Source: Sphingobium lactosutens DS20 (GTDB lineage: Bacteria; Pseudomonadota; Alphaproteobacteria; Sphingomonadales; Sphingomonadaceae). Taken from it: a stretch of DNA of 64,000 nt. The stretch's first letter is position 1. Each line of letters starts with the position of its first letter. Both the position numbers and the translations under genes were made by a program. The DNA lies in assembly GCF_000445105.1 (NCBI RefSeq), contig NZ_ATDP01000075.1, forward strand, positions 1 to 64,000, in the 5' to 3' direction. Below, piece after piece: positions 12,698 through 53,442 of the stretch. The notes under the pieces are model-generated. The model was not told the origin of the DNA and made no database searches. It saw only the letters and a list, made by a program, of their open reading frames with translations.

Positions 12698-12752
12698 GAT
12701 GTTTCCCTTCGAGCTGACAGGTTGCCGTTGCGGCTTGCGCCGCGTCGGACGG

Positions 12753-33013: not shown

Positions 33014-34537
33014 ATGTATCCTTTACCGCAATGGACCCAACGGGCAGACAAGCGCGGGCTCGATCCGCTCGGCATGCAGAATAGTGGTGTGCTTCTTTAT
33101 CAGTCGCTGCTTCCAGGTATCAGCAACGTCACCCTGCGCATGCGCTATTATGGCTATTATTGCTGGCTGAGTGAAACCTACGCCCGGAAGGGAGCCACCA
33201 ACGACTTCGAAGCCTGGCGTAACTGGGTGCGGCGTGCCGAGGCGCTTTACGCGCTGGTGTCGGCGCAGGCCGGTGAGACCGGCGTCGGCGGCATCGACTG
33301 GGCCAATCGCCGCCTGGCCGCCGCAGGCCGAACCATCGACTTTGAAATGGCCGCATCGACCGACCCTGCGCAAGAGCGCTATCTGCGTCAGTCGCTCGGG
33401 GTCTTCGGCGGCGCCTATTATAGCCAGATGGTGGAAATGGGCCTGTTCACCGAGAACAGGCACGGGATACAGGTTGCGACCCGTGATCTGGGGCGCCGCG
33501 CCGCGACCCTGTTTGCCGATGCCATCGGCCCGGACCTCGTGAAGCTCCTGCGCCAGAAGATCACCGATGCGCGCGTCACGCCAGGTGATCTGGAACGTCT
33601 TGAACCGATCATACCATCCGCAATCGCGCCCGACAGCGCAGAGCGGCTTTTCTATGAAGCAGTCCTGTTCGCCAGAGAGGAACCTGCGCGCAAGAGCGCC
33701 CACAGCCGCGCCGCGACCCTCGCCCTCATCCTCGATGCCGCAAGTGCGCGCGGAGGATGGCCGGACCCCGAGCAGGTTCGATGGCATATGTTCGATCCGC
33801 CCGAGAATGCGCTATCCCCCGGTCTGGAGACACAGCGCCCCAACTGGGAAGCCTATCAATGCCAGGATCTGATGCAGGTCGCATGTGCAGCACTCCTGGC
33901 CTGGGCCATCGCGATCATCAACAGCGCACCGCATGGTCAGTCGTTGCCCGAGATCCGCGCCGAGATCGTCGCGCACCTGGCCGCGCAGGAGGAGTATCTC
34001 GTTTCGGCGCGTTCGGCCTATTGGCGCGACATACGCTGCCGTATCGAGCCCATGACCTTTGCCTATCAGAATGCATGGCGCAGCCTGACCAGTGCGCGCG
34101 GCGTCGTGACCGACAAGGCTGCTGAAGCGATCAACCTCATGGCGACATTGCATCAGCGTATCGCCAGCCGGACCGATCTCGCCACCGCTGTGGCGCAAGG
34201 GCTCCCGGACCGGGGCTCCGCCCATTCGCTGCGCACCGAAGTCGGCTGGCTGGAGCGACGGGAAGGAGAGGCCGTCGCCGATCTCATCGCCGACTATATG
34301 CTCGAGCGTGTCGTCCGCCGGCATAGCTGGGTCGCCATGCAGAAGCTGCGTCGCCAGCGCGACTATACCTTCCTGTTCGAGCAGCGGGACGCCAGGCTTG
34401 TCTATCTGGCCGCCTACCAGCCCGTCGCCACCACGCCGCGCCTCCAGCCGGCGATCCAGTTCCTCGCGGACATTCACCTTCTCGGCGAGGATGGGCCGAC
34501 GCCACTTGGCCTGGCGGCGCTGGAGGCGATGCAATGA
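33014..34537 (+). CDS. Unknown protein, first gene of a three-gene defence-like unit
   Basis: 507-residue soluble protein. I do not recognise it. The start 'MYPLPQWTQRADKRGLDPLGMQNSGVLLYQSLLPGISNVTLRMRYYGYYCWLSE' is Tyr-rich and looks conserved; the rest is mostly helical. No Walker, nuclease or membrane motifs are visible. Its stop overlaps the start of the PLD-type gene (ATGA), which in turn overlaps the cyclase-like gene, so the three are probably one translational unit. Neighbouring Gabija-like genes and a HEPN protein point to anti-phage defence. It may be the sensor or effector partner. Confidence 0.6.
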   Translation: MYPLPQWTQRADKRGLDPLGMQNSGVLLYQSLLPGISNVTLRMRYYGYYCWLSETYARKGATNDFEAWRNWVRRAEALYALVSAQAGETGVGGIDWANRRLAAAGRTIDFEMAASTDPAQERYLRQSLGVFGGAYYSQMVEMGLFTENRHGIQVATRDLGRRAATLFADAIGPDLVKLLRQKITDARVTPGDLERLEPIIPSAIAPDSAERLFYEAVLFAREEPARKSAHSRAATLALILDAASARGGWPDPEQVRWHMFDPPENALSPGLETQRPNWEAYQCQDLMQVACAALLAWAIAIINSAPHGQSLPEIRAEIVAHLAAQEEYLVSARSAYWRDIRCRIEPMTFAYQNAWRSLTSARGVVTDKAAEAINLMATLHQRIASRTDLATAVAQGLPDRGSAHSLRTEVGWLERREGEAVADLIADYMLERVVRRHSWVAMQKLRRQRDYTFLFEQRDARLVYLAAYQPVATTPRLQPAIQFLADIHLLGEDGPTPLGLAALEAMQ

Positions 34538-36915
34538 GGCTCCCCGACCATATTGGTCGCCGCGCCGGCCGGCCCTTCCATAGCGCGATCGCCACGAGCT
34601 TCGCCGTGGAGTTCGCAGCCGTCGAGGAAATCCTGCTGCCCCAGCTCATGGCAAGCGGCGCCTCCAACCTCCTGCTGATCACCGACGCCCGAATGGCGGC
34701 GCTGGCCCTCTCCGATGGATCGACCCTTCCGACCCTGCTCGGCCGGGATTATGCGCTCCACAGCCCGCCGCCGGCTGATGGTATCTTCCACCCAAAGATC
34801 ATCCTCCAGGTCGGTCGCGACAGCGCACGCGCCTTCGTGAGTTCGGCCAATCTGACCGCTTCGGGCCTAGCCGGCAACGCCGAGGTCGCGATCGAGATCG
34901 AGTGCAGGGACAAGGACAGCCCCGAGCGCGGGATCGTCCGCGCCATCTGGCGCTATCTCGACGCGCTCGTGCCGAAGGCCCCATCGCCCGCGCGCGACGC
35001 ACTCCTCTGGGCGCGAGAGCGCGCGGCATGGCTGGATGGCCCCGTTTCGCCCGATCTGCACGAACTCGACGATGGTTCGGCGATCGCCTTCCTCCATTCT
35101 CCCGGTGCAGAGGGCATCGGCGATCGTTTCATCTCGCTGGTCGGCAACGCACAGGTCGACACGCTGGTCGTGATAAGTCCTTATTGGGACGCTGATCTCA
35201 AAGCTCTCGCTGACCTCTCCCGCCGCCTTGCGCCCAGACAGGTCATCCTGCCGATAGACCCGTCCGCCCACGAATTTCCCGGCCAAGCGCCGTTCGCCAG
35301 GAAGGCGCGGATCGTTGCGCTCGACTGGCCCTCGCAGCGTTTCACCCATGCCAAGATCATCATCGCCTCGACCGCGACCCATGACCATGTCCTGTTCGGC
35401 AGCGCCAACTGCACGACCGCAGCCCTGGGCCACACCGGATCCGTCGGCGCCAATGCCGAAGCCTGTAACTACCGCCGCCTGCCGCGCGGTACCGCGCGTG
35501 AGGCGCTCGGCCTCGATCGCTGGCTCGATGGCGATGCCATCGGGCTCGATGATCTCGCGGCGCCGGTGGAAGGCCCGCCCATTCCCATGCAAGCGATCGA
35601 GGCCCGCCAGCCCGGCGCCTTCGAACTCGATTCCGGCTTGCTCCACTGGCGACCAGCGACAGCCGGCAGCGACCTCGGGAATGTCCAGTTGCTCGATCGC
35701 CATGCCCAGCTGATCCTATCGATCGCGGTTGCGTCCTTCCGGCATGGAGACGGCGCGCGCACGGTCCCGATCGATCCGGGCCTACAAAAAGCGGTGCGGT
35801 TCGCGCGTGTGGAAACCGGCCATGCTTTCTCGACCATCGCTCATGTCACGCATCGGGACGCCCTTCGCTCCCGCCGCCGGGAGGTGGCGACCGGCAGTGT
35901 CGCGCGGGCGCTTGCGCGCTTCACCGACGGCGCCGACTTCGACCTGTGGATGCATCAGGCCTTCGAGACCCTGGCCCGGGCGGATTTCGATTCTGACCAG
36001 GAACCCCGCAAACTCTCTGCGGTTCGCCCGCACGCCCGCAAGACGGATCGCGAGCCCGCCGCGCCGGTGCCGCTGAGCTATGAAGAATTCATGCAAGGCA
36101 AAGCGGGCACGCGGCAGCAAGGAGGGCAGGGCGCCAACAGTCTTGCAGGAACCTACAGCGACAGCATCCGCGACTTCCTCAATCTTCTCTCCGGCCGGGC
36201 GGCCGCGATCGTCCCCGACGACGACTATGATCCGGAATTCGACGATCCGCCGGAAGACGAGACCGGTGGGCCGCCCCTTGACGGGGCTGACCCTCCCGCG
36301 ATTGAACCTGCTCCCCGGCATGACGAGAAACCTCGCCATGAGCCGATCGATGCCCGTCTCTACGAACGGCATGTCATCGCTTATGTCGAGGGTCTCGAGG
36401 ATGACGAGCCGCTTGGCTCGAGTGACGTCCTGCGCCTGCGCTTCTGGACCCTTTTCCTGCTGTACAAGGCCCGTTGCGAAGACCTCCCCAAGGGTCTCGA
36501 CACATCCAGCGTCGCACTCGGCTGGCCACGCTTCCTCGTTCGCATCCTGGTCGGCTTCTTCTGCGGGCGCAGGCCCGCCATCACCCGCGTCATGCTCGCG
36601 CGCGATTATGGCGGGATGCCGGTCGATTTCATGGAATGCTGGATCACCATCCTCTGGGGTCTGGATGCGATCGAAAACGCGCTGGCGGACCGCCCCCGGG
36701 ATCGCGCGTTCCTCAAATATATCCCGGGCCTGCGGCAGCGTGTCATTTCGCTCCTTGGCCTTGCTCCCGCCGAATTGAATGGAGACATCGCCCTGGACGT
36801 CCACGCAGGACTGGATGGAACGATCGGCCCTCGGCTCGGGGTTACGCCGCATATGAAGGGCACCGCTGCCGCGGCTTCAGGCAGCAACCCCATCATGGAA
36901 GGACGTGGCCGATGA
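34534..36915 (+). CDS. Double-HKD phospholipase-D-type protein
   Basis: 793-residue protein. Two PLD half-sites are visible. The first has His86, Lys88 and then Ser103, Asn106 ('FHPKIIL...FVSSANLT'); the second has His272, Lys274 and Ser290, Asn292 ('THAKIII...LFGSANCT'). This H-x-K...S-x-x-N pattern is that of PLD-superfamily nucleases such as BfiI. Residues ~330-793 carry no helicase motif; an acidic, Pro-rich linker sits near 560-610. It could cut DNA or lipid. ATGA overlaps on both sides tie it to its partners. Confidence 0.75.
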   Translation: MRLPDHIGRRAGRPFHSAIATSFAVEFAAVEEILLPQLMASGASNLLLITDARMAALALSDGSTLPTLLGRDYALHSPPPADGIFHPKIILQVGRDSARAFVSSANLTASGLAGNAEVAIEIECRDKDSPERGIVRAIWRYLDALVPKAPSPARDALLWARERAAWLDGPVSPDLHELDDGSAIAFLHSPGAEGIGDRFISLVGNAQVDTLVVISPYWDADLKALADLSRRLAPRQVILPIDPSAHEFPGQAPFARKARIVALDWPSQRFTHAKIIIASTATHDHVLFGSANCTTAALGHTGSVGANAEACNYRRLPRGTAREALGLDRWLDGDAIGLDDLAAPVEGPPIPMQAIEARQPGAFELDSGLLHWRPATAGSDLGNVQLLDRHAQLILSIAVASFRHGDGARTVPIDPGLQKAVRFARVETGHAFSTIAHVTHRDALRSRRREVATGSVARALARFTDGADFDLWMHQAFETLARADFDSDQEPRKLSAVRPHARKTDREPAAPVPLSYEEFMQGKAGTRQQGGQGANSLAGTYSDSIRDFLNLLSGRAAAIVPDDDYDPEFDDPPEDETGGPPLDGADPPAIEPAPRHDEKPRHEPIDARLYERHVIAYVEGLEDDEPLGSSDVLRLRFWTLFLLYKARCEDLPKGLDTSSVALGWPRFLVRILVGFFCGRRPAITRVMLARDYGGMPVDFMECWITILWGLDAIENALADRPRDRAFLKYIPGLRQRVISLLGLAPAELNGDIALDVHAGLDGTIGPRLGVTPHMKGTAAAASGSNPIMEGRGR

Positions 36916-37667
36916 GGGACGAAGCAGCTTTGCCCATCGCGCCAGAAGCGAGCGCGCAAGGCCGCCGCTGGTCCATCTGGATCGATATCGAGGGGTTCAG
37001 CACACTCTGGGACCGCGGGAACAAGGCGATCCTTGGCCTGCGCGCGGCGATGGAGGGCATCTACCAGATAGGAACGAGGATCTATCACGCCGATCCGGAT
37101 CGCCTTTTCGCGCACCAGTTCGGGGACGGTTTCATCATTGTGGCGGATTTCCACGAACCGCAGCTCGATCGGTGCGCAGCGATTGCCATCGCTCTCATGC
37201 GGCACGTCTCCGGGGCGCGTCCGGCCATCGCGGAAGGCGCATTCGCCGACATTTCGGGACTTTGGCCCATGGCGATCCAGGCGGCCGCCGTGCGTGATGG
37301 CGCCGACGACCGTGTGGCGCTCGGCAGCGGGATCATGACCCTCCTCCCGGTCATGGGCACCGCGCTGATCGCCGCCAACAAACTCGATGCGAAGAACCCC
37401 GTCAAAGGATCGATCCTGACCGTGGCATCCGCCAACAGCGCCCGGATATCATCCGCATTTCAGCGTCAGGACGTCGCCACTGCCAAGGATGTGACGATCA
37501 TCGACTGGGTCCATACCGAGCATGCCGATATAGAACGGATGCTGATGGACGCCGGCGTCGGTCGATCCGCCGGCGATGCCGAAAAAGCGGTCCGGGACTA
37601 TGCCGTTGCAGAAAAACCCCCATTCGCGTGGATCGACGGGACCTTCAGCTACAACAATATCACCTGA
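36912..37667 (+). CDS. Class III nucleotidyl-cyclase-like protein
   Basis: 251-residue protein. 'WSIWIDIEGFSTLW' (Asp25) and 'HQFGDGFIIVADF' (Asp72) match the two metal-binding aspartates of class III cyclases. The base-selecting Lys of adenylate cyclases is not evident (Gln69 precedes the FGDG turn). Free-standing cyclases of this class make cCMP or cUMP in Pycsar defence, so a signalling role is possible. No cyclic-nucleotide effector of the known Pycsar types lies next to it. It may instead be a degenerate domain with a scaffold role. Confidence 0.6.
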   Translation: MRDEAALPIAPEASAQGRRWSIWIDIEGFSTLWDRGNKAILGLRAAMEGIYQIGTRIYHADPDRLFAHQFGDGFIIVADFHEPQLDRCAAIAIALMRHVSGARPAIAEGAFADISGLWPMAIQAAAVRDGADDRVALGSGIMTLLPVMGTALIAANKLDAKNPVKGSILTVASANSARISSAFQRQDVATAKDVTIIDWVHTEHADIERMLMDAGVGRSAGDAEKAVRDYAVAEKPPFAWIDGTFSYNNIT

Positions 37668-37718: not shown

Positions 37719-39134
37719 TCAGCCAAGGATCGGTGACTGCGCGCAAATGACCAGTTCCCTGGAGCCACGCGTCATCGCGACATAGAGATGGCGGGCATCG
37801 AGTTCATCGGCGCCCAGGATCACCGCGACATCCGCCTCGAGCCCTTTGAGCAGCAGCGTGCTTCCAACGGCACGACGCGGCAGTGACCGTCCGACGAGCC
37901 GATACTCCTCGCGCATCGCGATCGCCGTCTCGACAAAAGGCGTGCCGCCTCGCTCGCACCGCTGCAGGGCCTGCATGCAGGCCCGAAACACGGCCGGGCG
38001 AAAGACGCGCGCGCCGCTTTGTTTGTTGAGTTCGACAAGCAGCGCGGCAACCCGCTGGTGACACCTGTCTGCCTCGAAGGCGAGGGCGGCGCTCTCGACC
38101 TCATTGGCCTCCTTGCGCGCCTGGCCGCGCCGCAGCGTATCGAGCCGCTGCACCAGTTGAGCCGTTCCCACATTGGTCATGAGCTTCTGCGCAAAGTCGA
38201 GGATCTGGCCCGTTGCCTGCTGGCTCGCGAGATCGAGGGCTTCAGCGAAGGAAACGAGATCCCGAAGATCGACCGCCTCGACCGTCACGGCTCCGGGCGT
38301 CTGGCTCGCAAATCGCTGCTGGCTTCCCGGATTGCGCGAATCGCCGATGATAAGGACTGAGCCGTCGGTGGCGGGCGATCGGCTCTGACATGCCCCAAGC
38401 TGCTTGGGATGGTCGTTCTGACTGCCGTCGAGCTGGACCCAGCGCACCTCGGGCACCGCCTGCCTCAGGTCGATCTTCCGTCCGGCATGAAGCTCGCCCC
38501 GGACATGAAGGAGCCAACGGCCGAAGGTCTCGGTACCCGCATTTCTCCATCGCCAGGGATCGCCCAGCGTGCCCGCAACGGAGAAATGGCCAAGCACCTG
38601 TCCATTCCAGTCGGCGAGTGGGTCGTTGCGGTCGAAGCCGAAGATCGCCTGCATGGGATCACCCACCACCGCGGTCGGCAACAGCGCTGAAAGTGCGCAC
38701 ACCAGCTGATGCTGAAGTTCTGAACAATCCTGATACTCATCGACCAGCAGCCGTGCATAACTGGCCTGGATCACGTCCGACACATGGCCCGAGAGAAGCA
38801 GGCGCGCGGCCGCGCGACGGATCGCCACATAGCCCGGTGTACGTCCTTCGAGGATCGCGGGATCATGACCCGAGCGCAGCGGAAAGGTCTTGATCAGCCG
38901 CATCGCCCATCCGTCGATGGTCGCCAGCCGGTAAAGGCGCGGCTGCACGCCGGCCCGGTCAAGCCGCCCCTTCAGCGCCGCCACCCCCGCATTGGTATGG
39001 GTCAGCACCAGGATCGGCGTGCGTGCCGTGTGACGGGTCAACGCTCGGCTCAGCAATTCGGTCTTGCCGCAGCCGGCAGGCGCGACGATGGCCCCGCGTC
39101 CGATCGCCAGCAGATCCGGCATGCCGTCAGCCAT
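37719..39134 (-). CDS. UvrD-like helicase (GajB-like)
   Basis: 471-residue superfamily 1 helicase. Walker A is 'APAGCGKTELL', motif II 'LLVDEYQD', motif III 'VVGDPMQAIFGF', and the C-terminal motifs are 'STLLLKGLEADVAVILGAD' and 'LYVAMTRGSRELVI'. It is short for UvrD and fits GajB of Gabija. I place the start at 'MADGMPDLL', which overlaps the ATPase gene by eight bases; upstream in-frame codons lie within that gene. It is convergent with the cyclase-like gene. Confidence 0.82.
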   Translation of the reverse strand: MADGMPDLLAIGRGAIVAPAGCGKTELLSRALTRHTARTPILVLTHTNAGVAALKGRLDRAGVQPRLYRLATIDGWAMRLIKTFPLRSGHDPAILEGRTPGYVAIRRAAARLLLSGHVSDVIQASYARLLVDEYQDCSELQHQLVCALSALLPTAVVGDPMQAIFGFDRNDPLADWNGQVLGHFSVAGTLGDPWRWRNAGTETFGRWLLHVRGELHAGRKIDLRQAVPEVRWVQLDGSQNDHPKQLGACQSRSPATDGSVLIIGDSRNPGSQQRFASQTPGAVTVEAVDLRDLVSFAEALDLASQQATGQILDFAQKLMTNVGTAQLVQRLDTLRRGQARKEANEVESAALAFEADRCHQRVAALLVELNKQSGARVFRPAVFRACMQALQRCERGGTPFVETAIAMREEYRLVGRSLPRRAVGSTLLLKGLEADVAVILGADELDARHLYVAMTRGSRELVICAQSPILG

Positions 39135-40845
39135 GGTCGATCCAGGCGAAAATCGCATCGATCGTCGGGCGAAGCTGACCTCCCGTCGTCTGATGCAGAT
39201 CCGGCGCGACAATCTCCTGCGCCACGGCCTCCATGGCACTGACGCTCTTGAACCATCCCTTGCGGGTGCGCGATGCCCGGCCGAGCATGGCGCGGGTGGC
39301 GGCATCGAGGCTGCCGAAGGCGGCCACGTTCCTCACAGTCTCCAACTGATAGGCGTTCTGCGACACCGAGCGGATGTGGTCGGAGACCACGCTCTCCTCC
39401 TTGAGATCGATGGCCCGTTCGAGAAGCAGCTTTGCGCCGCCGACCGACAGCGACATGAACAGCTCATCTTCCAGCGCATGCCCATCGGTCCATTTGAAGA
39501 CCTTCCCGCCGGCCTGAAGAAAGGCCGCCTCGAGATTGCCGTGCACCGCGATGTCGCTGTCGCGCAGCACCCCGGTTCGATAGCCCATCTGCTGGAAGGC
39601 ACTCGCGCGGGCGAAGGTCGTATCGCCGCCGCCGTCGACGAGCGCGACACCGAGCGCGGTCAGCGATGGCCGGTTCGTCGCCTGGCGATAAAGGTCGAGT
39701 CCCCGGATCAAGCCCACCTCGCTCGCGCCCTCGCAGACCAGCACCGACCGGGCGAGCAAGGCATCGGGAAATTTGCGGACCGTCCCCTGGACGTCGCCGG
39801 CACGGCCCATCCACGATACGGTATGGCCAAACGGACCTGGCCGCACGACATGGAGTTGCTCGATCGACAGTTCCCGCACCGCCACCGGCGAATGGCTGGT
39901 GACGAAGGCCTGCAAGGGCGGCGCCTGCTCCTTGGCCCCGAGTTCTGTCAGCAGCCGAATGATCCGGTGGGGTTCAAGACCATGCTCCAGTTCATCGATG
40001 AGGATCATCGGGGCATCGCCCGCGACATGCCGCTGCAAGCCGGCGACGAGCAGACGGACCGATCCGAGACCAAGCCCGCGCAAAGGCACGCCATCGCCGC
40101 CATGAAGCGAGATCGTGCCGCCGGTGACATTCACCCCATGGGCGTCGAGCAAGGCCTGGACCTGCCCGGCGATCGGCACGCCGAGCCGGCTGGCCGTCGT
40201 CTGAACGGCGGCAAGGGCCTCGCCGAGTTGATCCTTCGCCTTGTCACCAAAGGCGATCCGCGCGTCGCGCGCGGCCTGCGCGATGGCTGAAGCCGCGCTC
40301 GCCCGTTCCTCGGACACCTTGTTCAGGATCGAACCCCGCTTCCAGCTCAGATTATGTTCGCCCGACTGCCCGAGCCGGGTCGGCGCAAGCCGCACACGAT
40401 CCGCCCAACTCAGACTGCGCGACTGGCCGAGAGCCGCAGCCCGCTCGGAGACGAGCCGCCATTGCGGTTCGAGATCGTCGCCTACCGACAGTTCCACCGT
40501 CAGCACCGTATCGAGGCCCGAACCGGGCTCTGGCTCGATGACACCGCTCTGGAAGTTGAAGCCACGCAGATAAAGGCCATAGGCCTCCATCGAGCGGAGT
40601 TGGCTGTCGAGTTCCCCAAGCGTCACGCTGACCTGAATAGGCTGATCGAGCCGCAGCCCATGAAAATCATCGTCGCAGAAGGTGAGGTTCCGGCGCGCGC
40701 CGAGGCAGAAGTCGATCGCATCGAGTATCGTCGATTTGCCGCTGTCGCCCGGTCCGATCAGGCAGTTGATGCCGGAGAGTGGAAACCAGTCCAGCCGCGC
40801 GATCGAGCGAAAATTCCTGATTTCGATTTTACGAATCCGCGCCAT
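39127..40845 (-). CDS. OLD-family ATPase/nuclease (GajA-like)
   Basis: 572-residue protein. An SMC-like ATPase head comes first ('IEIRNFRSIARLDWFPLSGINCLIGPGDSGKST', Walker A at 31-39; Walker B 'MILIDELEHGLEPH', then 'AFVTSHSPVAV'). A C-terminal Toprim follows with Glu in 'VLVCEGASEVGLI' and the acidic pair in 'VLRDSD'. GajA of Gabija has this layout and cuts or nicks phage DNA when nucleotides fall. The paired UvrD-like gene supports the Gabija reading, though other OLD-UvrD pairs exist (for example PARIS-like or Old/Tin). Confidence 0.82.
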   Translation of the reverse strand: MARIRKIEIRNFRSIARLDWFPLSGINCLIGPGDSGKSTILDAIDFCLGARRNLTFCDDDFHGLRLDQPIQVSVTLGELDSQLRSMEAYGLYLRGFNFQSGVIEPEPGSGLDTVLTVELSVGDDLEPQWRLVSERAAALGQSRSLSWADRVRLAPTRLGQSGEHNLSWKRGSILNKVSEERASAASAIAQAARDARIAFGDKAKDQLGEALAAVQTTASRLGVPIAGQVQALLDAHGVNVTGGTISLHGGDGVPLRGLGLGSVRLLVAGLQRHVAGDAPMILIDELEHGLEPHRIIRLLTELGAKEQAPPLQAFVTSHSPVAVRELSIEQLHVVRPGPFGHTVSWMGRAGDVQGTVRKFPDALLARSVLVCEGASEVGLIRGLDLYRQATNRPSLTALGVALVDGGGDTTFARASAFQQMGYRTGVLRDSDIAVHGNLEAAFLQAGGKVFKWTDGHALEDELFMSLSVGGAKLLLERAIDLKEESVVSDHIRSVSQNAYQLETVRNVAAFGSLDAATRAMLGRASRTRKGWFKSVSAMEAVAQEIVAPDLHQTTGGQLRPTIDAIFAWIDHG

Positions 40846-41022: not shown

Positions 41023-41490
41023 ATGCGCCGTGAAGATATCGATCAGGACATGCGGGCTCTGGCCTTCGACTTTTTCTACTGGTTCTCCCGCTTCGAGTTT
41101 GCGCTGAAGGAAAAGCGCTTCCTCAGGAACGAGGCCATCGGCGCGCGTGCCGAACCCGATTGGGACAAGTTCGTCATGGCGCATCGCGCCGCTTATGCCC
41201 TATCTCCCGCCGGCGAGGCACTGCTTGCCGAACAGCCCCGACGGCAGATCGTCGGCGATCCCGAACATGACTTCGAGGATGTGCCCTTTTCTCCGAACAC
41301 GGCCGATCTCGACAGGGTCGTGGCCTATGCCAAGACCGTGCGGAACAATCTCTTCCATGGCGGCAAACATGACCATGACCAGTGGGACGATCCCGCCCGT
41401 ATGCGCCGACTGCTCACGCTGACCATCGCCGTCCTGACGGAACTGGCGGTGCTGGGCGAGTTCGGCGGCGACTATGACCGCTACTATTGA
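41023..41490 (+). CDS. HEPN-domain-like protein
   Basis: 155-residue helical protein with 'AYAKTVRNNLFHGGKHDHD': Arg107, Asn108 and His112 form the RN-x3-H signature of HEPN ribonucleases. HEPN proteins are common effectors in abortive infection and TA modules. No MNT-type antitoxin partner is next to it. It is divergent from the Gabija-like pair and may be part of that locus or independent. Confidence 0.65.
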   Translation: MRREDIDQDMRALAFDFFYWFSRFEFALKEKRFLRNEAIGARAEPDWDKFVMAHRAAYALSPAGEALLAEQPRRQIVGDPEHDFEDVPFSPNTADLDRVVAYAKTVRNNLFHGGKHDHDQWDDPARMRRLLTLTIAVLTELAVLGEFGGDYDRYY

Positions 41491-42281: not shown

Positions 42282-42974
42282 ATGTTGGGCGGATGCCCGC
42301 TCGTGCGGGCACCGGGCTCTATCTCCGCTTCGCTCCGACCAAGCCCCTGCGGGTCTTGGCGGCTTGCGCCGTAACGATCCCTTCCGCGGGCAAATGAGGC
42401 AGGCGAGGCGCTCCTTCCGCGAGGGCGGGACGTGCGGCAAGCCTCGCGCCATTCAGGCTTCGCCTAAGGAATCGCGCTGACGCGCGATGCGGATCGTGGA
42501 GCCAGCAGACAAGCCATCACCCCCTTCGCCGCCTCGCAGGATCCGCGCGTTGCAGAACCGGGGCGGGGATGCAACGAGTTGCGTCGCCAAGCTGCGCTAG
42601 CTGAAAATGGGCCGGCGACGTTTGTCTGTTTGTCAGAGAAGCGCCGGCCCATTTTCAGCAAGCTTCGCTAGGCTCCCGTGCCTGTTGCATCCCCGCCCCG
42701 GTCCTGCGCCTTCGGACCTGCGAAGGCGGCTCCGGGTGCGATGACTTGTCAGCCGGACCACGCTCCCTTTCCATTCAAGCGGAACCGTCCGCTTGCGCGG
42801 CCGGTGCGTCTTCGTGCCTGTTGGCCGCTTCGCGGCTGTTTTTGCTCAGGCTCACCATGTACGATGAAATTCTGTCAAGAAATCAATAACATGGAAGAAT
42901 TGGAGGGGAGGGGGTAGGGTTCAGATGTGGCCGGGAAAGAGAAACGGACCACACAACAGAGAAAGGATGAAGTC
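42282..42974. other. 693-bp non-coding region before the DUF736 gene
   Basis: No gene is evident. It holds nested inverted repeats (42557-42702, listed separately) and, near the right end, AT-richer sequence with GAAAGGATGA as the ribosome-binding site of the DUF736 gene. A plausible place for a promoter, replication or transfer origin. Confidence 0.5.
42557..42702. repeat. Nested perfect inverted repeats
   Basis: The outer arms are 19 bp (ACCGGGGCGGGGATGCAAC at 42557-42575, reverse complement at 42684-42702). The inner arms are 17 bp (CTGAAAATGGGCCGGCG at 42601-42617, reverse complement at 42642-42658) around a 24-base loop. The whole 146 bp could fold into one long two-stage cruciform. It could be an origin (oriT or oriV), a resolution site, or a small structured transcript. 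Confidence 0.7.
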
Positions 42975-43466
42975 ATGAAGATCGGCAGCTTCAAATTCGA
43001 CGAACGCGCCAGCGACATTATCGGAAAGATCGCTACCCGCGAAATGCGGTTTCCCTATCTCATCATGCGCCGCGTCGAAGATCGACAGAGCGACAGCGCC
43101 CCCGTCTATGAAATTTACGAGACGAACCGCGCGGGCGACGAAATCCAGATCGGCGTCGTCTGGGAACGCAAGATGCGCTCCAATGACGAGATATTCCTGT
43201 CCGGCATGATCGACGATCCGAGCTTCCGCGAACCGCTTCCCATCGCCCTGTTCGGTGACGAGACGAACGGCTTTGACGTCCAGTGGCGGCGCGAGCGTGA
43301 CCGCGAGGCACAGCCGGGCGGCCTCGGCGGACGCAATGGCGGCGGCAACCGTGGCGGCGGTTTCGGCGGGCGTTCGGGCGGCGGCTTCTCCGGCGGCAGC
43401 ACAGCCGGAATGGGCGGCGAATATACCGGAGGCGGCCGCAGCCTTGACGATGAGGTGCCTTTTTAA
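42975..43466 (+). CDS. DUF736-type protein with SSB-like tail
   Basis: 163-residue protein. Residues 1-~105 resemble DUF736 ('MKIGSFKFDERASDIIGKI', then 'DEIQIGVVWERK...EIFLSGMIDDPSFREPLPIALF'). A ~45-residue Gly-rich linker follows, ending in the acidic tip 'SLDDEVPF', nearly the same as the SSB tip that recruits repair and replication proteins. DUF736 proteins normally stop near 110 residues. A single-strand DNA-binding hub for conjugative DNA is suggested, which is inference. Confidence 0.75.
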   Translation: MKIGSFKFDERASDIIGKIATREMRFPYLIMRRVEDRQSDSAPVYEIYETNRAGDEIQIGVVWERKMRSNDEIFLSGMIDDPSFREPLPIALFGDETNGFDVQWRRERDREAQPGGLGGRNGGGNRGGGFGGRSGGGFSGGSTAGMGGEYTGGGRSLDDEVPF

Positions 43467-43547
43467 TCGGCACGAGAAGGCGGGACGGGGGAGCGCTGGA
43501 ACGCTTCCCCGACCCTGAACCGCTACCCCGTCACAAGGAACCATATC

Positions 43548-44561
43548 ATGAGCAAGCCAACGGCCTTGGCCAGCGTTAGCAGCTTTGCCGACCTGCCGGA
43601 ACTCTATGCCGAACTCACCGCCACCCCCGATTTCGTTGCCTCGTTCGGCGATCCCTTGCCGCTCACCATCATCGACGCAGCCGAGGAACCAGCCGAACAC
43701 ACCATGCCTGATCCGATCGCGGCGCAGGCCGAATGCGGCGGCATCGTCGCGGCCATCTTCGACCTGTTGACCGATACGCGGCTCGACCCGCTCGCGCCGG
43801 AACTCGCATGGGGCTTCGTCAACAGCTTTCATTTCGTCGCGAACAAACTGGAAAGCCGCGAGGACCGGCTGGCCGATACCCTGCGCGACATGGCCCGCCG
43901 TCTCGAACCGGGCGAAGTCTTCAACAAGGAACTGGAAGACACCCAGCTTGAATGCCAGTCGGTCGCCGAACAGCGCGCCGCCATGGAAGCCATGCGCGAC
44001 TATGCCGCCGCCATGTATCGCGTTTGTGCCGGTCGCCCATGGTCGCCCGCCAAGGGATCGCGCGCGTCCCACGTCACCACCGCCAGCCAGATTTCGGCGC
44101 TGGACTTCCTGCGCGCGCGATCCGAGCGGCGGCGCGACCGATACGACCCGCAAGGCCCCGTCGTCGTCGTCTCCGGTCCCGCCGACTGGCACGACTGGCG
44201 TATCCTCTGGAACCGGCTCGATCAGATCAGGACACGCATCCCGAACATGGTGCTTGTCACCACCGGACAGCGCCTTGGCGTCGATGCAGCCGCCGCCGCA
44301 TGGGCCGCGCAAAGGGGCGTCGTCTGCATCGCCTTCGGCCTCTATGGACGCGGCAAAGGCAAGGGCTTCAAGCGCAATCGCGACATTGCCGAACTCATGC
44401 CGGTAGAAGCCATATTGTGCGAAGGATCGGGCATCCAGTCGAGCCTCTATGACCTGTTCAACCCAAGCCAAGGCCACCGCGTCCCGACCCATGTTTTCTT
44501 GGCGACCGATCAGGAACCCGATGTGCCGATCAAGAAAAAGCGGCGCATCATAGCGGCCTGA
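43548..44561 (+). CDS. DUF2493/SLOG-type protein
   Basis: 337-residue protein. The C-terminal ~135 residues form a DUF2493 (YspA-like, SLOG) Rossmann domain: 'GPVVVVSGPADWHDWRILWNRLDQIRTRIPNMVLVTTGQRLGVDAAAAAWAAQRGV'. The helical N-terminal ~200 residues are typical of ICE/plasmid versions. SLOG domains bind nucleotides or their derivatives. It is 81 bases after the DUF736 gene, in a pairing common in alphaproteobacterial ICEs. Confidence 0.8.
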   Translation: MSKPTALASVSSFADLPELYAELTATPDFVASFGDPLPLTIIDAAEEPAEHTMPDPIAAQAECGGIVAAIFDLLTDTRLDPLAPELAWGFVNSFHFVANKLESREDRLADTLRDMARRLEPGEVFNKELEDTQLECQSVAEQRAAMEAMRDYAAAMYRVCAGRPWSPAKGSRASHVTTASQISALDFLRARSERRRDRYDPQGPVVVVSGPADWHDWRILWNRLDQIRTRIPNMVLVTTGQRLGVDAAAAAWAAQRGVVCIAFGLYGRGKGKGFKRNRDIAELMPVEAILCEGSGIQSSLYDLFNPSQGHRVPTHVFLATDQEPDVPIKKKRRIIAA

Positions 44562-45507: not shown

Positions 45508-45810
45508 TTGGCACGCATCACTATCCGCATAGACGATGACCTCTATGCGCGCCTTTCTCTTCAGGCGCGCAACGCCGGTCTCGGCGCCGCGACCTATTGT
45601 CGCGACATCCTCGAACGCTTCGAAGGCACGGATCCTTCGGGCTATCATGCCCGCTTTGACGAACTCCATGCGACGGCCATCCAGGCCTTCGCGATCCTCG
45701 CCACATCGGTCGGCGAGCGGTCCCCGGACATCCTCCAGAAGGGATTGGGTGAAGCGCGCCGGCTCCTCCGCGAAAGGGGGCTGCTCGATCCCGAGCAGGA
45801 CCGGGCATGA
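45508..45810 (+). CDS. Ribbon-helix-helix accessory protein of the transfer locus
   Basis: 100-residue protein: 'MARITIRIDDDLYARLSLQARNAGLGAATYCRDILERFE' is a ribbon-helix-helix DNA-binding unit, followed by a helical tail. TTG/ATG-like alternatives upstream are less likely. Its stop overlaps the coupling-protein ATG. RHH proteins such as TrwA bind oriT, help the relaxase and repress their own operon. Confidence 0.75.
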   Translation: MARITIRIDDDLYARLSLQARNAGLGAATYCRDILERFEGTDPSGYHARFDELHATAIQAFAILATSVGERSPDILQKGLGEARRLLRERGLLDPEQDRA

Positions 45811-47855
45811 GCATCTTTCGTCACGACACGCTCGGCTCCTGGACAAGAGGCGGGCAGGCCATCGTCCACAACGTGCGCATGACCACGCAGGTCTTCTACC
45901 AGACCTTCCTCGCGGGGCTGGTGATCTGGATCGGCGGCATCATCTGGTACGCGCTCGAGAAATCATCCGATTACGAACGCTTCGTTCTGATGAAGCTTGG
46001 CCAAGCTGCCTTCATGGGAGACGCCGTTCCCGGCAATGTCACCCCAATCCTGTTCAAGACCCCGGAGGGCAAACAATACTGGACCAGCCCGAAGGCGCTC
46101 CTCGATTCCGGCCTCGCCCACAAGACGCTCGAAGCCTTCGAGACCTATCTCCTGCACGGGGCGGCAATATCCGGTCTGTTCGCCCTGGCCATGCTGGGGT
46201 GGGCCTGGTTCTACTTCACCCGGACGGGAAGGGGGCTCGGCTCCAACCAGTTCCTTCGCGGAGCGCGGTTCGGCACCGTGCGGCAGGTCCGCCGGGCGCT
46301 GTGGCGATACGCCAAGGGCAGCTTCGACATCGGCGGGGTCAATGTGCCCGACGCGTTTGAGCCCGAGCACATCCTCATCTGCGGCGCGCCTGGCACCGGC
46401 AAGACGAACATCATCGTCAAGATGCTCGACGGCATCCGGAAGCGAAAGCGTCGCGCCATCGTCTATGACACGGCCGGCACCTTCGTAGAAAAATTCTACC
46501 GGCCGGGGATCGACGTTCTGCTCAATCCGCTCGACGCGCGGGCGGATTCCTGGTCACCCTGGGTCGACGTCCCGAGAGACTACCATTACGACCAGATCGC
46601 CGAGTCCACGATCCCTGACAAGACGGGTGATCCCTTCTGGGCGAAGGCAGCGCGCGGTACGCTGGTCGCCGTTTTGCGGAAGCTGGCTCGGCAGGAACGC
46701 ACCCTCGTTTCAATCCTGCTCGACACGCTGCTCCGCTCCAAGCTGAAGGATCTCGCCGCCTTCGCCGCCGGCACCGATGCGGCAGCATTCATCTCGACCG
46801 AAGGCGAGCGCACCAGTGCCGGCATTCAGGCCGAGCTCGCCTCGGTCATGCGCAGCTTCTCTTACCTCGATGATACCGCAGACGGCTTTTCGATCCGCGA
46901 CTGGGTTGCCAACGAGAAGGACGACAGCTGGCTTTTCATCACCGTGAAGGCGGACCAGCTTCCTTCGCTTCGACCCCTGATCACGGTGTGGCTGGATATC
47001 GCGATCAGCGCGATCATGAGCATGACGCCCGACCGCCATCGGCGCCTCTATTGCGTCATCGACGAGTTGCCGACCCTCCAGAGACTGCCCTCGCTCGGTG
47101 ACTTTCTCGCCCGCGCGCGGAAATATGGCGGCTGCGGCATTCTGGGCTTCCAAAGCTACCCGCAGCTCGAAGCGACCTACGGCATCCAGGATGCGGCCGC
47201 GATCACCGGCTACTGCTCGACCTGGGTGGCACTGCGAGCCAACGACACCCCTACCGCGAAGCATGTCAGCGAGAACCTGGGCCAAGTCGAGCAGGTCGAA
47301 GCGAACGAGGGCATGTCCTATGGTGTGAACGACATGCGGGACGGCGTGAACCTCTCGCGCATGCAGGTGACGCGACCGCTGGTCATGCACACCGAGGTCA
47401 CCAACCTGCCTAACCTGATGGGCTATCTCAGGTTCGGTCGTAGCTTGCCAGTGGTCCGGTTCGAAGACAGCTACAATAAGGTCGCCTCCATTGGCGAGGC
47501 GTTCGAGGAGCGCGGCACCGCGCCCATTCGGATGGCGGTTCCAGCACCATCGGTATCCCCGGCGCCGGCTGCCCCGATAGCGCCCGCAAAACCCAACGCT
47601 ACCCCGGCGAAGCGGCGGCGTGCTGCCCCAAGCGTTCCAGGAGCTGAACTGCCCCTGGTACCGCCAAGTGAGCCAACGGGACCGGCCAGCACGCCCTTCG
47701 ATGAGGGACCGGTGTCTCCCCCGGCGCACAACGAGCGGAAAGAGGAAGCGAGCAACCCGCCGCCACCGCTGGAGCTATTCGGGAAGCCGGCCGGCTTCCG
47801 TCTCAGGCAGCACGGACGCCATGACGGCGCCCGCAATGCAGCGAGGCCGGCATGA
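45807..47855 (+). CDS. traD: Type IV coupling protein (TraD/TrwB family)
   Basis: 682-residue ATPase that brings relaxase-DNA to the secretion channel. Two N-terminal membrane helices (~29-50 and ~117-137) flank a periplasmic loop. Walker A is 'CGAPGTGKTN' at 193-200, Walker B 'LYCVIDELPTLQRL', and 'LGFQSYPQLEATYG' is typical of the family. A Pro/Ala-rich C-terminal tail (~570-682) may contact the relaxase. Start and stop overlap both neighbours (ATGA). Its membrane anchor implies an interacting type IV secretion system not seen in the window. Confidence 0.9.
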   Translation: MSIFRHDTLGSWTRGGQAIVHNVRMTTQVFYQTFLAGLVIWIGGIIWYALEKSSDYERFVLMKLGQAAFMGDAVPGNVTPILFKTPEGKQYWTSPKALLDSGLAHKTLEAFETYLLHGAAISGLFALAMLGWAWFYFTRTGRGLGSNQFLRGARFGTVRQVRRALWRYAKGSFDIGGVNVPDAFEPEHILICGAPGTGKTNIIVKMLDGIRKRKRRAIVYDTAGTFVEKFYRPGIDVLLNPLDARADSWSPWVDVPRDYHYDQIAESTIPDKTGDPFWAKAARGTLVAVLRKLARQERTLVSILLDTLLRSKLKDLAAFAAGTDAAAFISTEGERTSAGIQAELASVMRSFSYLDDTADGFSIRDWVANEKDDSWLFITVKADQLPSLRPLITVWLDIAISAIMSMTPDRHRRLYCVIDELPTLQRLPSLGDFLARARKYGGCGILGFQSYPQLEATYGIQDAAAITGYCSTWVALRANDTPTAKHVSENLGQVEQVEANEGMSYGVNDMRDGVNLSRMQVTRPLVMHTEVTNLPNLMGYLRFGRSLPVVRFEDSYNKVASIGEAFEERGTAPIRMAVPAPSVSPAPAAPIAPAKPNATPAKRRRAAPSVPGAELPLVPPSEPTGPASTPFDEGPVSPPAHNERKEEASNPPPPLELFGKPAGFRLRQHGRHDGARNAARPA

Positions 47856-50830
47856 TCAATCCCATCCGCCTCAAGGGGAAACCCGCCAACATCGCCCGAT
47901 ATTACACCGTCGGTGATTATTACACCAAGGGTGACGAAGAGCATTCCGAATGGGGTGGCAAGATCGCCGCCGAATTGGGGCTGGAAGGTGAGGTCGACCC
48001 TGCCGTCTTTAAGGAACTATTGGCCGGTAAGGTCGGCGACCAGCAACTAGGGCGTCGCCGAAAGGACGGCGAGATTCAGCATCATCCGGGATGGGACTTC
48101 GCGGTCAACGCACCCAAATCGGTATCGATCATGGCACTGGTAGCCGGTGATGACAGGATCATCGAGGCTCATGAACAGGCGGTCGGTGTCGCGCTCGCCT
48201 ATCTCGAGGAACATGCCACGATGCGGCATCGCGTCGATGGGGAGGTCACCGAGAAAACGACCGGCCGGCTGATCTGGGCACGCTTCACCGAGCATGCCTC
48301 TCGCGAGCTGGATCCTCATCTCCACACGCATGTCGTCGTCATGAACATCACCGACGAGCGGGACGGGGCGAAAAAGGTCAGCCTGGAAACCCGCGCGATG
48401 TTCGCCGAGCAGATGGCGGCCGGGCAGGTGTATCGCAATGAACTGGCACATCTCCTCCGGGAGCGCGGTTACGATGTCGAATTCGACCCGCGCCGTGGAC
48501 TGTTCGAGATCCGAGGCGTGCCCAAAGACCTGATCACCGACATGTCGCAACGCGCCGAGCAGATCGAGGCGCATGCAAAGGAGCATGGCCTGACCGGCCA
48601 GGCGGCACGACAGCAATCCTTCTATGCCACGCGTGGGCCGAAACAGAAGGCTTCCCTCGAAGAGCTTCATCAGCGGTGGGATGGCCGGCTCGGGCAGCAT
48701 GCCGAGGCGGTTAAAGAGACTCGAGCGGATGCAGAAGGAAGGGGAGAGCGGCCGCTTGAGGTCGATCCCGCTACCGCCGCACGCGCGATGCTGTTCGGCA
48801 TCCGCCAATCCGAAAGCAAGGAGGCCGTCAACAATCTCGGGAGGTTGCTACAGACCGCTATGGCCTCCCATGTGGGGGAGGTCCGCCTCGCTGATGTGCG
48901 CCCTGTCGTTGAGGAGCACCAGGAACGCGCCAAGCTTCTAGAAACCAGGCATCGCACCGGGGACGAGATCCACACGCGGGGGCGTACGACACGCAAGACA
49001 GCACGCCTGGAACTGGCGCTGTCAGACCAACTCGCGCTCGCTCTCAACGATGCGCGTCCGCTGGCCTCCGTCGAGTCGCTGCGCGATGCGGGGCTATCGC
49101 GGGGTCTCAAACCTGAGCAGCGGACGGCACTGCTACACATAGGGATGTCAGACCATCGGGTCGTAGCGGTGCATGGCGTCGCCGGCTCGGGCAAGTCGAC
49201 CATCATCCGCGCATTGCGTGAGGCGGTGGGCGAGGAGACCACCTTGATCGCGTTGGCACCTACCTCATCGGCGGCAGGTGAACTGGGGCTCAAGGCCGGG
49301 ATCGAGTCGCGTACGGTCGCGAGCCTGCTTGCCACCGGTGGGGTCAAGCTCGACGATAGCCACGTCCTGGTTGTCGATGAGGCTGGCCAGCTCGGCAACC
49401 GTCAGGCGATGCGGCTGCTCGAGATCAGTCGGGCCACCGGCGCGCGCCTCATCTTGCTTGGTGATACCCGCCAGACTGGAGCCATCGAGCAGGGCAAGCC
49501 CTTCTGGCTGATGATGCGCCTGGGTATGCCCAGGGCCGAGTTGAAGGACCCGATTCGGCAGGAAGCCGAGGGCATCACCAAGGCCGTGCGACTCGCACGA
49601 CTTCAGAATTACGACGGCTCGCTCGGTGCTCTCGACAAGGTCGTCAGCGGAGATAGCAGCGAAAAGCTCGCTGAAGCCATGGTCGGGGACTGGACGCGGT
49701 TAACTCCCGATCAGCGAGCCAAGACCAACATGCTGGTGCTCGAGAACGCGACTCGGCTGATCGTTAACACCAAGGTCCGCGAGGCACTGAAGACCGAGGG
49801 CGCGATCGCGGCCGAGGAAACCCGGCTGTCGATCCTGTCGCCATCGGGAATGACCGATCAGGAGAAGCATTTCGCGCGCTTCTATACCCGCGGCCAGGTC
49901 GTGACGTTTTCGCGCGACAATGTCGGATTGGGGATCGCGCGCGACGCCGAGTACAAGGTGGCTGGGGTAGGGCGAGATGCTCGTGGCCGTCAGACGGTCA
50001 ATCTGGTCGACGAGCACGGTCGGATGATTCAATGGGATCCCCGCCTCGGTCGGGCATCCCAGATCAATGTTTTCCAGGAGGAGAAGCGGGATCTTGCCGC
50101 TGGCGATCGCATCCAGTGGCGTTTGGTCAACAAGGATCTGGAACTCAAGAATGCCGAGCGGGGCACCGTGGAGCGTCTTGACGGTGCAGTTGCCACGATA
50201 CGCTGGGACCGGGACGGGCGAAGCCAGGAGGTCGATCTCTCCCAGTATAAAAACTGGGATCACGGCTACGGCGAGACCGTCTACTCAGCCCAGTCCAAGA
50301 CCTATGATCGGGTTTACGTCCTGGCACCGGTCAACTCCCCGCTGGTCACGGGCCAGAACTATTACACCGCGATCACCCGAGCGCGATTCGGAGCAAGTCT
50401 CTGGACGGAGAATCGAGAACGGCTCGTCGAGAAGCTGAAACTGCGGTCCGGCGAGAAAACGTCCTCGCTACAAGGGTTGGGACGAGTCGAGCGCGACAAC
50501 ATCAAGGGCAGGCGGGACCGTCACAGTGAGCGCTGGGACCGTTTGCGTGAGGAGCAGCGCTCGGAGCGCGAAGCAAGGAAAGAAGGCCTAGCTGCTCAGC
50601 GTGAACCTGCCGCTCCGTCTCCTCCCGACGGGTTGGCCGAACGCATTGCGCATCGCGCGCAGTCGACCGCCAGCTTTCTGGATCGATGGATCATCTCACT
50701 GCTCGATCGAAGTTCCCAGCGTGAGAATGGGGATGTGACAGGTGAGCGTTCGGGAACGCCAACCCCGCAACCGGTGGCTGAACCGCAGCATACTACCGCC
50801 CCTGATCATGGAGGTGGTCATGATCGTTAA
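47852..50830 (+). CDS. MobF-family relaxase-helicase (TrwC/TraA type)
   Basis: 992-residue bifunctional enzyme. The relaxase domain has tyrosine pairs Tyr17-18 and Tyr23-24 near the N-terminus, 'FAVNAPKSVSIMAL', and the metal-binding HUH triad His156, His158, His160 ('DPHLHTHVVV'). A RecD-like SF1 helicase follows with Walker A 'GVAGSGKST' (~residue 445), 'VLVVDEAGQLGN' and 'NYYTAITRARFG'. It nicks oriT and unwinds the transferred strand. Its start overlaps the coupling-protein stop, and it ends 10 bases inside the next gene. Confidence 0.92.
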   Translation: MINPIRLKGKPANIARYYTVGDYYTKGDEEHSEWGGKIAAELGLEGEVDPAVFKELLAGKVGDQQLGRRRKDGEIQHHPGWDFAVNAPKSVSIMALVAGDDRIIEAHEQAVGVALAYLEEHATMRHRVDGEVTEKTTGRLIWARFTEHASRELDPHLHTHVVVMNITDERDGAKKVSLETRAMFAEQMAAGQVYRNELAHLLRERGYDVEFDPRRGLFEIRGVPKDLITDMSQRAEQIEAHAKEHGLTGQAARQQSFYATRGPKQKASLEELHQRWDGRLGQHAEAVKETRADAEGRGERPLEVDPATAARAMLFGIRQSESKEAVNNLGRLLQTAMASHVGEVRLADVRPVVEEHQERAKLLETRHRTGDEIHTRGRTTRKTARLELALSDQLALALNDARPLASVESLRDAGLSRGLKPEQRTALLHIGMSDHRVVAVHGVAGSGKSTIIRALREAVGEETTLIALAPTSSAAGELGLKAGIESRTVASLLATGGVKLDDSHVLVVDEAGQLGNRQAMRLLEISRATGARLILLGDTRQTGAIEQGKPFWLMMRLGMPRAELKDPIRQEAEGITKAVRLARLQNYDGSLGALDKVVSGDSSEKLAEAMVGDWTRLTPDQRAKTNMLVLENATRLIVNTKVREALKTEGAIAAEETRLSILSPSGMTDQEKHFARFYTRGQVVTFSRDNVGLGIARDAEYKVAGVGRDARGRQTVNLVDEHGRMIQWDPRLGRASQINVFQEEKRDLAAGDRIQWRLVNKDLELKNAERGTVERLDGAVATIRWDRDGRSQEVDLSQYKNWDHGYGETVYSAQSKTYDRVYVLAPVNSPLVTGQNYYTAITRARFGASLWTENRERLVEKLKLRSGEKTSSLQGLGRVERDNIKGRRDRHSERWDRLREEQRSEREARKEGLAAQREPAAPSPPDGLAERIAHRAQSTASFLDRWIISLLDRSSQRENGDVTGERSGTPTPQPVAEPQHTTAPDHGGGHDR

Positions 50831-51813: not shown

Positions 51814-53382
51814 ATGGCTCGTCCCCGCAAACCCAAAGTTCAATCGCCTGCCCGGGGCCGCCCGGTCGGAGGTGAAAAAGCTGTCCTCTATGCTCGCGTC
51901 TCCACTGCGGAGCAGGAGAAGGAAGGCTTCTCGATCGACGCCCAGGTTGCTCTGATCCGGGAGTATGCCGAACGCATGGGGTTCGTCATCGCCGGCCAGT
52001 ATGTAGATGTGGAGACAGCCAAAAAGACCGGCCGAATGCAGTTCGAGGCGATGCTGAAATACCTTCGGGGCCATCCCGGGGTCCGCCACCTGCTGGTGGA
52101 GAAGACGGATCGGCTTTATCGGAACATCAAGGATTGGGTGACGCTCGATGGGTTCGACATCGAACTGCATCTCGTCAAAGAAGGAACGGTCCTCTCCCGC
52201 GACTCGCGGTCGTCCGAAAAGTTTATGCATGGTATCAAGGTCCTCATGGCCAAGAACTATGTCGACAACCTGTCGGAGGAGGCTCGTAAGGGCATGCTAG
52301 AGAAGGCGAAGCAGGGCATCTGGCCTTCGCAGGCTCCGCTTGGCTACCTCAATGTCGTCGGTCCACATGGGAAGAAAATAATAGTCCCCGACCCCGAGCT
52401 TGGCCCCATCGTACAGCGCGTTTTCGAATGGTTTGAAACCGGTGATTATGCGCTGAAGGAGGTCACCCAGAAAGCCAGAGACGCGGGTCTCAGATATCGT
52501 CGGAGCCAGCGACCGGTCGGGAACAGCACAATCCACTATATGCTCCGAAACCGGCTTTATGCCGGCGCTTTCGAGTGGGCTGGCCGCTTGTACCAAGGCA
52601 CTCACGATCCCTTGGTGACTCGTGAGACCTGGGAGAACGTGCAGGAGGTTCTCGACGGGCGTAGCGCGAGCAATGTCCGCGCCGAGGCTTTGCGTTTCGC
52701 ATTCACCGGCCTCATCACCTGTGGGCACTGCGGATGCGCCGTCGTTGCCCAGATGCAACGTGGACGGTACATTTATTACCATTGCTCGGGCTTCAAGCAG
52801 AAGTGTCCTGAAAAATATGTTCGTGAAGAGGCCCTGGCTTTAGCCTTCTCGGAGCAACTTGCCCGGCTGCGCATGGATGACGAGATTTTCTCACTGATCG
52901 AACGCGCGATTCGCGAATCGCATTCCGACAAGAGTCGGGAGCGAGTTGAGACAATCGCCCGTTTGCGCCTCGAAGCGGACCGATTGCAGGAACGTCTCGA
53001 CAAGCTCTACATCGATCATCTCGATGGCCGGATCACGGCCGACATGCACGACCGAATGTCTGCAACCTGGCGCGAGGAACGGGCAGGGTGCCAGCGCCGG
53101 ATCGACGTGCTGCATAATGCCGAAGATGCATATGTCGAAGACGGGATCGCGTTGCTCAATCTCGGTCGGAAGGCTCACGCAACCTTCAGCTTACAGTCTC
53201 CAAGCAGCAAAAACTCGGCTTTGAATCTGTTGGTTTTGAACAGCACGTGGGCGAACGGCCAACTGCACGTCACCTTTCGCGAACCGTTTGATATGCTTGA
53301 AGAAATTGGATCCGGAAATCCGCCCACCGAGCCCCCGACTGGGTCGGGTGGCTCGGGCGTTTCAAGTTGGCTCCCCGAGTAG
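51814..53382 (+). CDS. Large serine recombinase (ICE integrase)
   Basis: 522-residue recombinase. The resolvase domain has Arg28 and nucleophile Ser30 in 'VLYARVSTAEQEKEGFSIDAQ', 'VEKTDRLYRNIKDW' and the E-helix. A recombinase domain ('GLRYRRSQRPVGNSTIHYMLRNRLYAG'), a zinc ribbon ('ITCGHCGCAVVAQ...YHCSGFKQKCPEKYV') and a coiled coil follow. It reads into the tRNA-Asn gene; its last codons (W-L-P-E-stop, 53368-53382) are tRNA 3'-end bases. This marks the right ICE end and suggests the gene's end is rebuilt at integration. Confidence 0.88.
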   Translation: MARPRKPKVQSPARGRPVGGEKAVLYARVSTAEQEKEGFSIDAQVALIREYAERMGFVIAGQYVDVETAKKTGRMQFEAMLKYLRGHPGVRHLLVEKTDRLYRNIKDWVTLDGFDIELHLVKEGTVLSRDSRSSEKFMHGIKVLMAKNYVDNLSEEARKGMLEKAKQGIWPSQAPLGYLNVVGPHGKKIIVPDPELGPIVQRVFEWFETGDYALKEVTQKARDAGLRYRRSQRPVGNSTIHYMLRNRLYAGAFEWAGRLYQGTHDPLVTRETWENVQEVLDGRSASNVRAEALRFAFTGLITCGHCGCAVVAQMQRGRYIYYHCSGFKQKCPEKYVREEALALAFSEQLARLRMDDEIFSLIERAIRESHSDKSRERVETIARLRLEADRLQERLDKLYIDHLDGRITADMHDRMSATWREERAGCQRRIDVLHNAEDAYVEDGIALLNLGRKAHATFSLQSPSSKNSALNLLVLNSTWANGQLHVTFREPFDMLEEIGSGNPPTEPPTGSGGSGVSSWLPE

Positions 53383-53442
53383 GATTCGAACCTACGGCCA
53401 TTCGATTAACAGTCGAATGCTCTACCGCTGAGCTATCGGGGA
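53368..53442 (-). tRNA. tRNA-Asn (GTT)
   Basis: 75 bases on the minus strand: acceptor TCCCCGA pairs with TCGGGGA, D-loop 'AGCTCAGCGGTAGAGC', anticodon arm ATTCGACTGTTAATCGAAT with GTT, T-arm 'GTAGGTTCGAATCCTAC', discriminator G and an encoded CCA (53368-53370). The 3' end faces the ICE, the usual position for integration, and overlaps the recombinase 3' end. Confidence 0.97.

Follow-up and report, generated by a model that had tools for sequence, protein, structure and literature searches.

Three genes on the forward strand of a 64,000-nt stretch of the Sphingobium lactosutens DS20 genome (contig NZ_ATDP01000075.1, positions 1 to 64,000; hereafter the window) raise the question of whether they form together an undescribed defence system, as a preliminary description of the locus had proposed. 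They are designated here A (33014..34537, 507 amino acids), B (34534..36915, 793 amino acids) and C (36912..37667, 251 amino acids), and both the A/B and the B/C junctions are 4-nt ATGA overlaps, which bears out the coordinates and the linkage first reported. The analyses presented below indicate that the real unit is the A-B pair and not the A-B-C trio. With a probability of roughly 60%, this pair corresponds to a two-gene, helicase-less relative of the core of the Azaca system lodged in a slot of a conjugative element, in which A would sense DNA, B would act as a PLD nuclease and C would be an accessory.

A conserved pair related to Azaca

Counting the window, 36 distinct loci were examined and gene A adjoins gene B in 35 of them; since it recurs to this extent, the adjacency is more than chance. 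Loci reached via B all had A next to it (16/16, corresponding to 6 genome contigs and 10 plasmid loci; the plasmid copies occur in 13 records, and the three that were not opened had the same scores as some that were). Those reached via A comprised 2 new loci in a 299-genome sample of the phylum, 10 new loci in a 397-genome sample of the family once the window and G617 (the contig of locus L004) had been set aside, 5 contigs of a viral collection and two further Rhizobium loci. The sole A locus devoid of B, in R. phaseoli (L110:4989-5333), is a 115-codon frame holding a remnant of A; the same remnant appears in three plasmid records, one of which was opened. In Rhizobium sp. CB3060 (L109:2563-6581) the order is B-A, with another PLD gene further along, and at L062:5057-7944 beside a type I restriction gene, the pair is broken: an in-frame stop interrupts A, and the reading frame of B is shortened. 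An exact 4-nt overlap was found in 23 of the 34 pairs in which A precedes B and, in the remaining ones, the longest listed B frame begins further upstream. Named hosts belong to the Alpha- and Betaproteobacteria, with one genome (G252) from another class of the same phylum, and to the Bacteroidota. C, on the other hand, adjoins A-B in only 4 of the 35 pairs (the window, L004, L006 and L007, all from one mobile-element family), and half of the eight C loci, in four genomes (L039, L040, L041 and L072), lack A-B altogether; the three genes thus do not co-occur as a rule, an outcome that the preliminary description had named as refuting its proposal, and this speaks against A-B-C as a unit.

Azaca, which is composed of ZacA, ZacB and ZacC, is said to have been described by Millman et al. 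in 2022. Three true Azaca loci (L106-L108, from 3 of 299 genomes; ZacA E-values of 7.5e-132, 6.9e-128 and 9.9e-89) were fetched for comparison, and in these the three genes follow each other in overlapping frames, with ZacB carrying HPK and HAK half-sites that resemble the two HxK half-sites of B. The order ZacA then ZacB and the overlap of the frames are the same in A-B, and the ZacA motif around PG...R.RY...W also occurs in A (as LLPGISNVTLRMRYYGYYCW in the window protein). When proteins were scanned one by one against PADLOC, ZacB was matched by 17/17 B proteins, including that of the window (E 1e-14, a weak match), and ZacA by 10/17 A proteins (best E 1.5e-5). Profile-profile comparison with hhalign gave a probability of 84.9 (E 6.5e-6, 79 columns) for the A family against ZacA and of 98.2 (E 2.9e-14, 273 columns) for the B family against ZacB; none of 80 column shuffles reached the real scores, which were 51.4 against a best shuffle of 20.2 for A-ZacA and 121 against 24.9 for B-ZacB. 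Judged from these sequence comparisons, A is distantly homologous to ZacA and B to ZacB.

Several results weigh against this kinship. Window A itself has no PADLOC ZacA match at E<=1, and models built from the three ZacA proteins matched in a plain search just 6 of 21 A proteins, missing that of the window, while those built from the three ZacB proteins matched just 8 of 17 B proteins, with an E-value of 6e-4 for window B. The pair differs from Azaca in size, A being longer than ZacA of L106 and L107 by 116-119 amino acids and B longer than ZacB of L107 by ca. 170, and one A-B lineage adds a cyclase-like gene. The first gene had been put down as unknown, and direct library scans with the window protein are indeed blank (nothing above chance in Pfam, nothing in PADLOC at E<=1 and no NCBIfam model), but its family is now linked to ZacA. 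AlphaFold2 (AF2) structure prediction for A gave a pLDDT of 86.5.

Another difference with Azaca is the missing third gene, ZacC, which is a SF1/SF2 helicase according to excerpts of PMC12278908; the system as a whole bears a PLD, according to those of PMC10952713. On the true ZacC proteins, a profile derived from those of the three Azaca loci scored 1482-1934 bits, and among 34 A-B loci (L109 excluded) it matched a single open reading frame weakly, a DrmD-like SNF2 protein of L014 (39.7 bits). No ZacC helicase was found in the window; weak matches occur in the genome that carries it, none of those listed being on the window contig (C75). Since ZacC is missing, A-B is considered Azaca-like and is not filed as Azaca. 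The proposal of an undescribed system is therefore to be narrowed: no named system in the scanned libraries corresponds exactly to the locus, but A and B are remotely related to Azaca proteins, so that what is undescribed is the helicase-less arrangement and not the protein families.

PLD half-sites and a possible mode of action

B matches PLDc_2 of Pfam (E 9.5e-10) and contains two half-sites, H86/K88...N106...E117 and H272/K274...S290/N292...E309, whose nine residues are invariant in 17/17 aligned B proteins, that of the window included. The position of the Asp in the canonical HxK(x4)D motif is occupied by V93 and S279, and in the 17 proteins Asp is found at position 93 in none and at position 279 in one. 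The two PLD-type sites of the preliminary description are thus complete and conserved but, since these positions are rarely or never Asp, they read HxK...SxN...E rather than as textbook HKD motifs. Tdp1 and BfiI also lack this Asp, and in both enzymes the two PLD halves fold into one active site. B may be built in the same way, and would then cut nucleic acid through a phosphohistidine intermediate and independently of metal.

Other PLD proteins share features with B but differ from it. Restriction enzymes of the BfiI/CglI type have, like B, a nuclease of the PLD superfamily, and the CglI nuclease works with a separate ATPase, an association reminiscent of that of Azaca (PMC5737866, in excerpt). 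B differs in that both half-sites are carried by one chain, and the A-B pair has no helicase; no B3 domain was matched in a Pfam scan of the window proteins. The DISARM protein DrmC also has a PLD domain and its profile matches B weakly around the first half-site, but B was rejected as a DrmC because it scored 33.8 bits against an NCBIfam cut-off of 133. The scanned neighbours in the window are Gabija and HEPN-like genes with no DISARM gene among them; at the A-B locus L014, a DrmD-like helicase lies upstream.

As for A, it is predicted to be helical, with possible winged-helix elements, and may bind invading or processed DNA, keeping B inactive until DNA is bound. Since the pair has no motor, recognition would have to be direct and not coupled to translocation. 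In the literature searched, the mechanism of Azaca was not found, the system appearing only in lists and comparisons within the portions of text available.

Gene C and the exchangeable position after B

The place of A-B is fixed in a family of sphingomonad elements (the window from 42284, L002, L004-L007, L056 and L057), whereas the cargo that follows B, as far as the backbone, varies. In L004, L006 and L007, C is followed at 9 nt by a gene, D, encoding a C92 (YaeF/YiiX-like) amidase (E 1.5e-9 in L006 and 3.4e-8 in L007), and the backbone resumes within ca. 60 nt after D, so that in all three C-D occupies the slot as far as one common point of the backbone. D was not detectable in the window, where no tblastn match was better than E 0.12. 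There, the slot up to this point (near 42284) is occupied by the Gabija genes gajB (37719..39305, reverse strand, convergent with C; PADLOC E 2.1e-185) and gajA (39127..40845, reverse strand; E 9.8e-225), by a 155-amino acid HEPN-like gene (41023..41490, forward strand) and by further sequence. In L005, a protein-kinase-like gene (8715-9917; Pkinase E 1.1e-19) takes the cargo position on the opposite strand.

Where C occurs without A-B, its partners differ again: in L039 (8641-9920) a frame with HNH-like Cys/His motifs, recognized by eye and having no Pfam match at 0.1, overlaps C by ATGA; in L041 (6651-8947) C is followed by a protein with a hydrophobic stretch at its end and by a gene that is weakly HEPN-like; and in L040 no same-strand gene adjoins it. 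C was recovered in 5/397 genomes of the family, 2/385 of the class and 1/163 of the order, the window genome being counted each time. It seems therefore to be a swappable accessory in an exchangeable position after B and not a fixed part of the system, and D may be the gene with which it is usually associated in this family of elements.

The nature of C is suggested by its alignment. When the C proteins were realigned to 26 class III cyclases, the match passed in order through DIEGFS, GDGF and MGTALIAANKLD, and the putative metal-binding pair D25 and D72, 47 residues apart, is invariant in 8/8 proteins. PF00211 (Guanylate_cyc) is moreover the sole Pfam family that any C protein matched (2/8 members, that of the window not among them; best E 0.027). 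H68, which we take to stand at the Lys position of class III adenylyl cyclases, is His in 8/8, in agreement with the earlier observation that both metal-binding Asp are kept and the usual Lys is missing. C is thus probably a divergent class III cyclase, and as an accessory it would probably be a nucleotide-binding protein of the cyclase fold.

A number of points argue against such an identity, beginning with the loss of this Lys. The positions presumed to hold the usual transition-state Asn and Arg, as placed by a weak alignment, are respectively Ile in 8/8 proteins and Lys in five, Thr in two and Arg in one. The profile score was reached by 2 of 300 shuffles, the hhalign probability was 0.8-3.5% depending on settings, the best-scoring local part spans just 43 columns and the mean AF2 pLDDT was 40.5 (7 sequences). 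Window C matched no Pfam family above chance and no NCBIfam model, and the window genome has no PF00211 match at E<=0.001. None of the eight C proteins matched any PADLOC model at E<=1, PycC included.

Comparison with the Pycsar cyclase PycC nonetheless shows a similar single-domain organization, a location beside defence genes and two metal-binding Asp at similar spacing (44 residues apart in two PycC cyclases), and excerpts of the same report (PMC11224242) indicate that the base-selecting residues of PycC vary from clade to clade, so that the changes in C do not exclude activity. C differs from Pycsar by its lack of PADLOC match and by its partners: no effector with a cyclic-nucleotide-binding Pfam family was found among the proteins scanned (A, B, D and the partner genes of L039 and L041). 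In a literature search for a PLD protein with a nucleotide cyclase in an anti-phage context, no such pair appeared in the titles or abstract openings of the matches listed.

Competing explanations and genomic context

How C relates to A-B can be read in other ways. C may be a passenger of the slot with no role for A-B, C-D or C alone being then a separate module. This is an unlikely alternative: different genes follow B in the relatives, such as the opposite-strand kinase of L005, and C is present elsewhere without A-B, but its start overlaps B in three of the four A-B loci that carry it, and 2/397 family genomes hold both C and A-B when 0.15 would be expected (P 0.008), these two belonging to the same element family and not being independent. 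About equally unlikely is a single signal-gated system made of A-B-C, and of D where present, in which C would sense infection and make an unusual cyclic nucleotide licensing B via A, and the D amidase in the relatives. The tight packing of the genes is consistent with it (B and C share an ATGA overlap in the window and in both L004 and L006 and lie 51 nt apart in L007, and 9 nt separate C from D), as are the spacing of the Asp pair, the clade-to-clade variation of the base-selecting residues in PycC cyclases (PMC11224242, in excerpt), given which the missing Lys is not disqualifying, and the diversity of C partners, which include the C92 amidase, the HNH-like frame overlapping C in L039 and a membrane-type protein. 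Against it, C is missing from 31 of the 35 A-B loci and occurs without A-B in half of its own, the altered Asn and Arg positions described above do not fit a usual cyclase, and no cyclic-nucleotide-binding family was detected in the proteins scanned. In a broader version, slightly more doubtful, C would be the founder of a family of defence signal synthases with a cyclase fold, which have an invariant His at the base-selecting position and occur with varied effector-like partners (C92 amidase, HNH-like, membrane-type); in one mobile-element family, C would have been wired to the helicase-less Azaca pair, yielding a signal-gated PLD nuclease system of four genes (A-B-C-D).

Finally, A-B might serve the mobile element in regulation or maintenance and have no part in defence, as could be suggested by its copies on 13 plasmid records and in the conjugative element of the window. 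This appears very improbable in view of the kinship with an anti-phage system already published and of the restriction-modification, Zorya, Olokun and Gabija genes beside the inspected loci. Indeed, large neighbours of A-B loci picked by eye, which are a chosen set and not a random sample, all matched PADLOC at 1e-20 (9/9 proteins); they include type I and type III restriction enzymes, an Olokun protein and partial Mokosh and Tiamat matches, and Zorya and DrmD-like genes also lie near A-B loci. That the genes of the locus are likely defence genes with a PLD effector and a cyclase-like third protein, as first suggested, is supported, and the helicase-less Azaca relative remains the preferred explanation of the pair.

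The surroundings of the window locus agree with the preliminary description, which had pointed to a Gabija-like pair and a HEPN protein nearby. Both Gabija components are confirmed by PADLOC, and the 155-amino acid gene holds RNNLFH, presumably a HEPN-like motif, although a Pfam scan gave nothing for it at E<=1. Past the slot, backbone genes of the element (DUF736, YAcAr/SLOG; 42284..44561) are followed by a TrwB-type coupling protein and a TrwC-type relaxase (45807..50830) and by a serine recombinase (51814..53382), all on the forward strand, the last abutting a tRNA-Asn gene (53368-53442, reverse strand). On this gene content, A-B-C is carried by a conjugative element. Elsewhere in the window, positions 7042-12958 contain genes that read as a heavy-metal RND efflux set, an assignment judged by eye with no search made.

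Helicase-less relatives of Azaca are probably under-annotated, because in a PADLOC scan window A escapes detection and window B gets only a weak call. This natural pair devoid of helicase points to ZacA and ZacB as the possible minimal unit of Azaca, and is a simple two-protein target for biochemistry. If C makes or senses a nucleotide, a signalling branch would have been added to this unit, with partners that differ from one locus to another.
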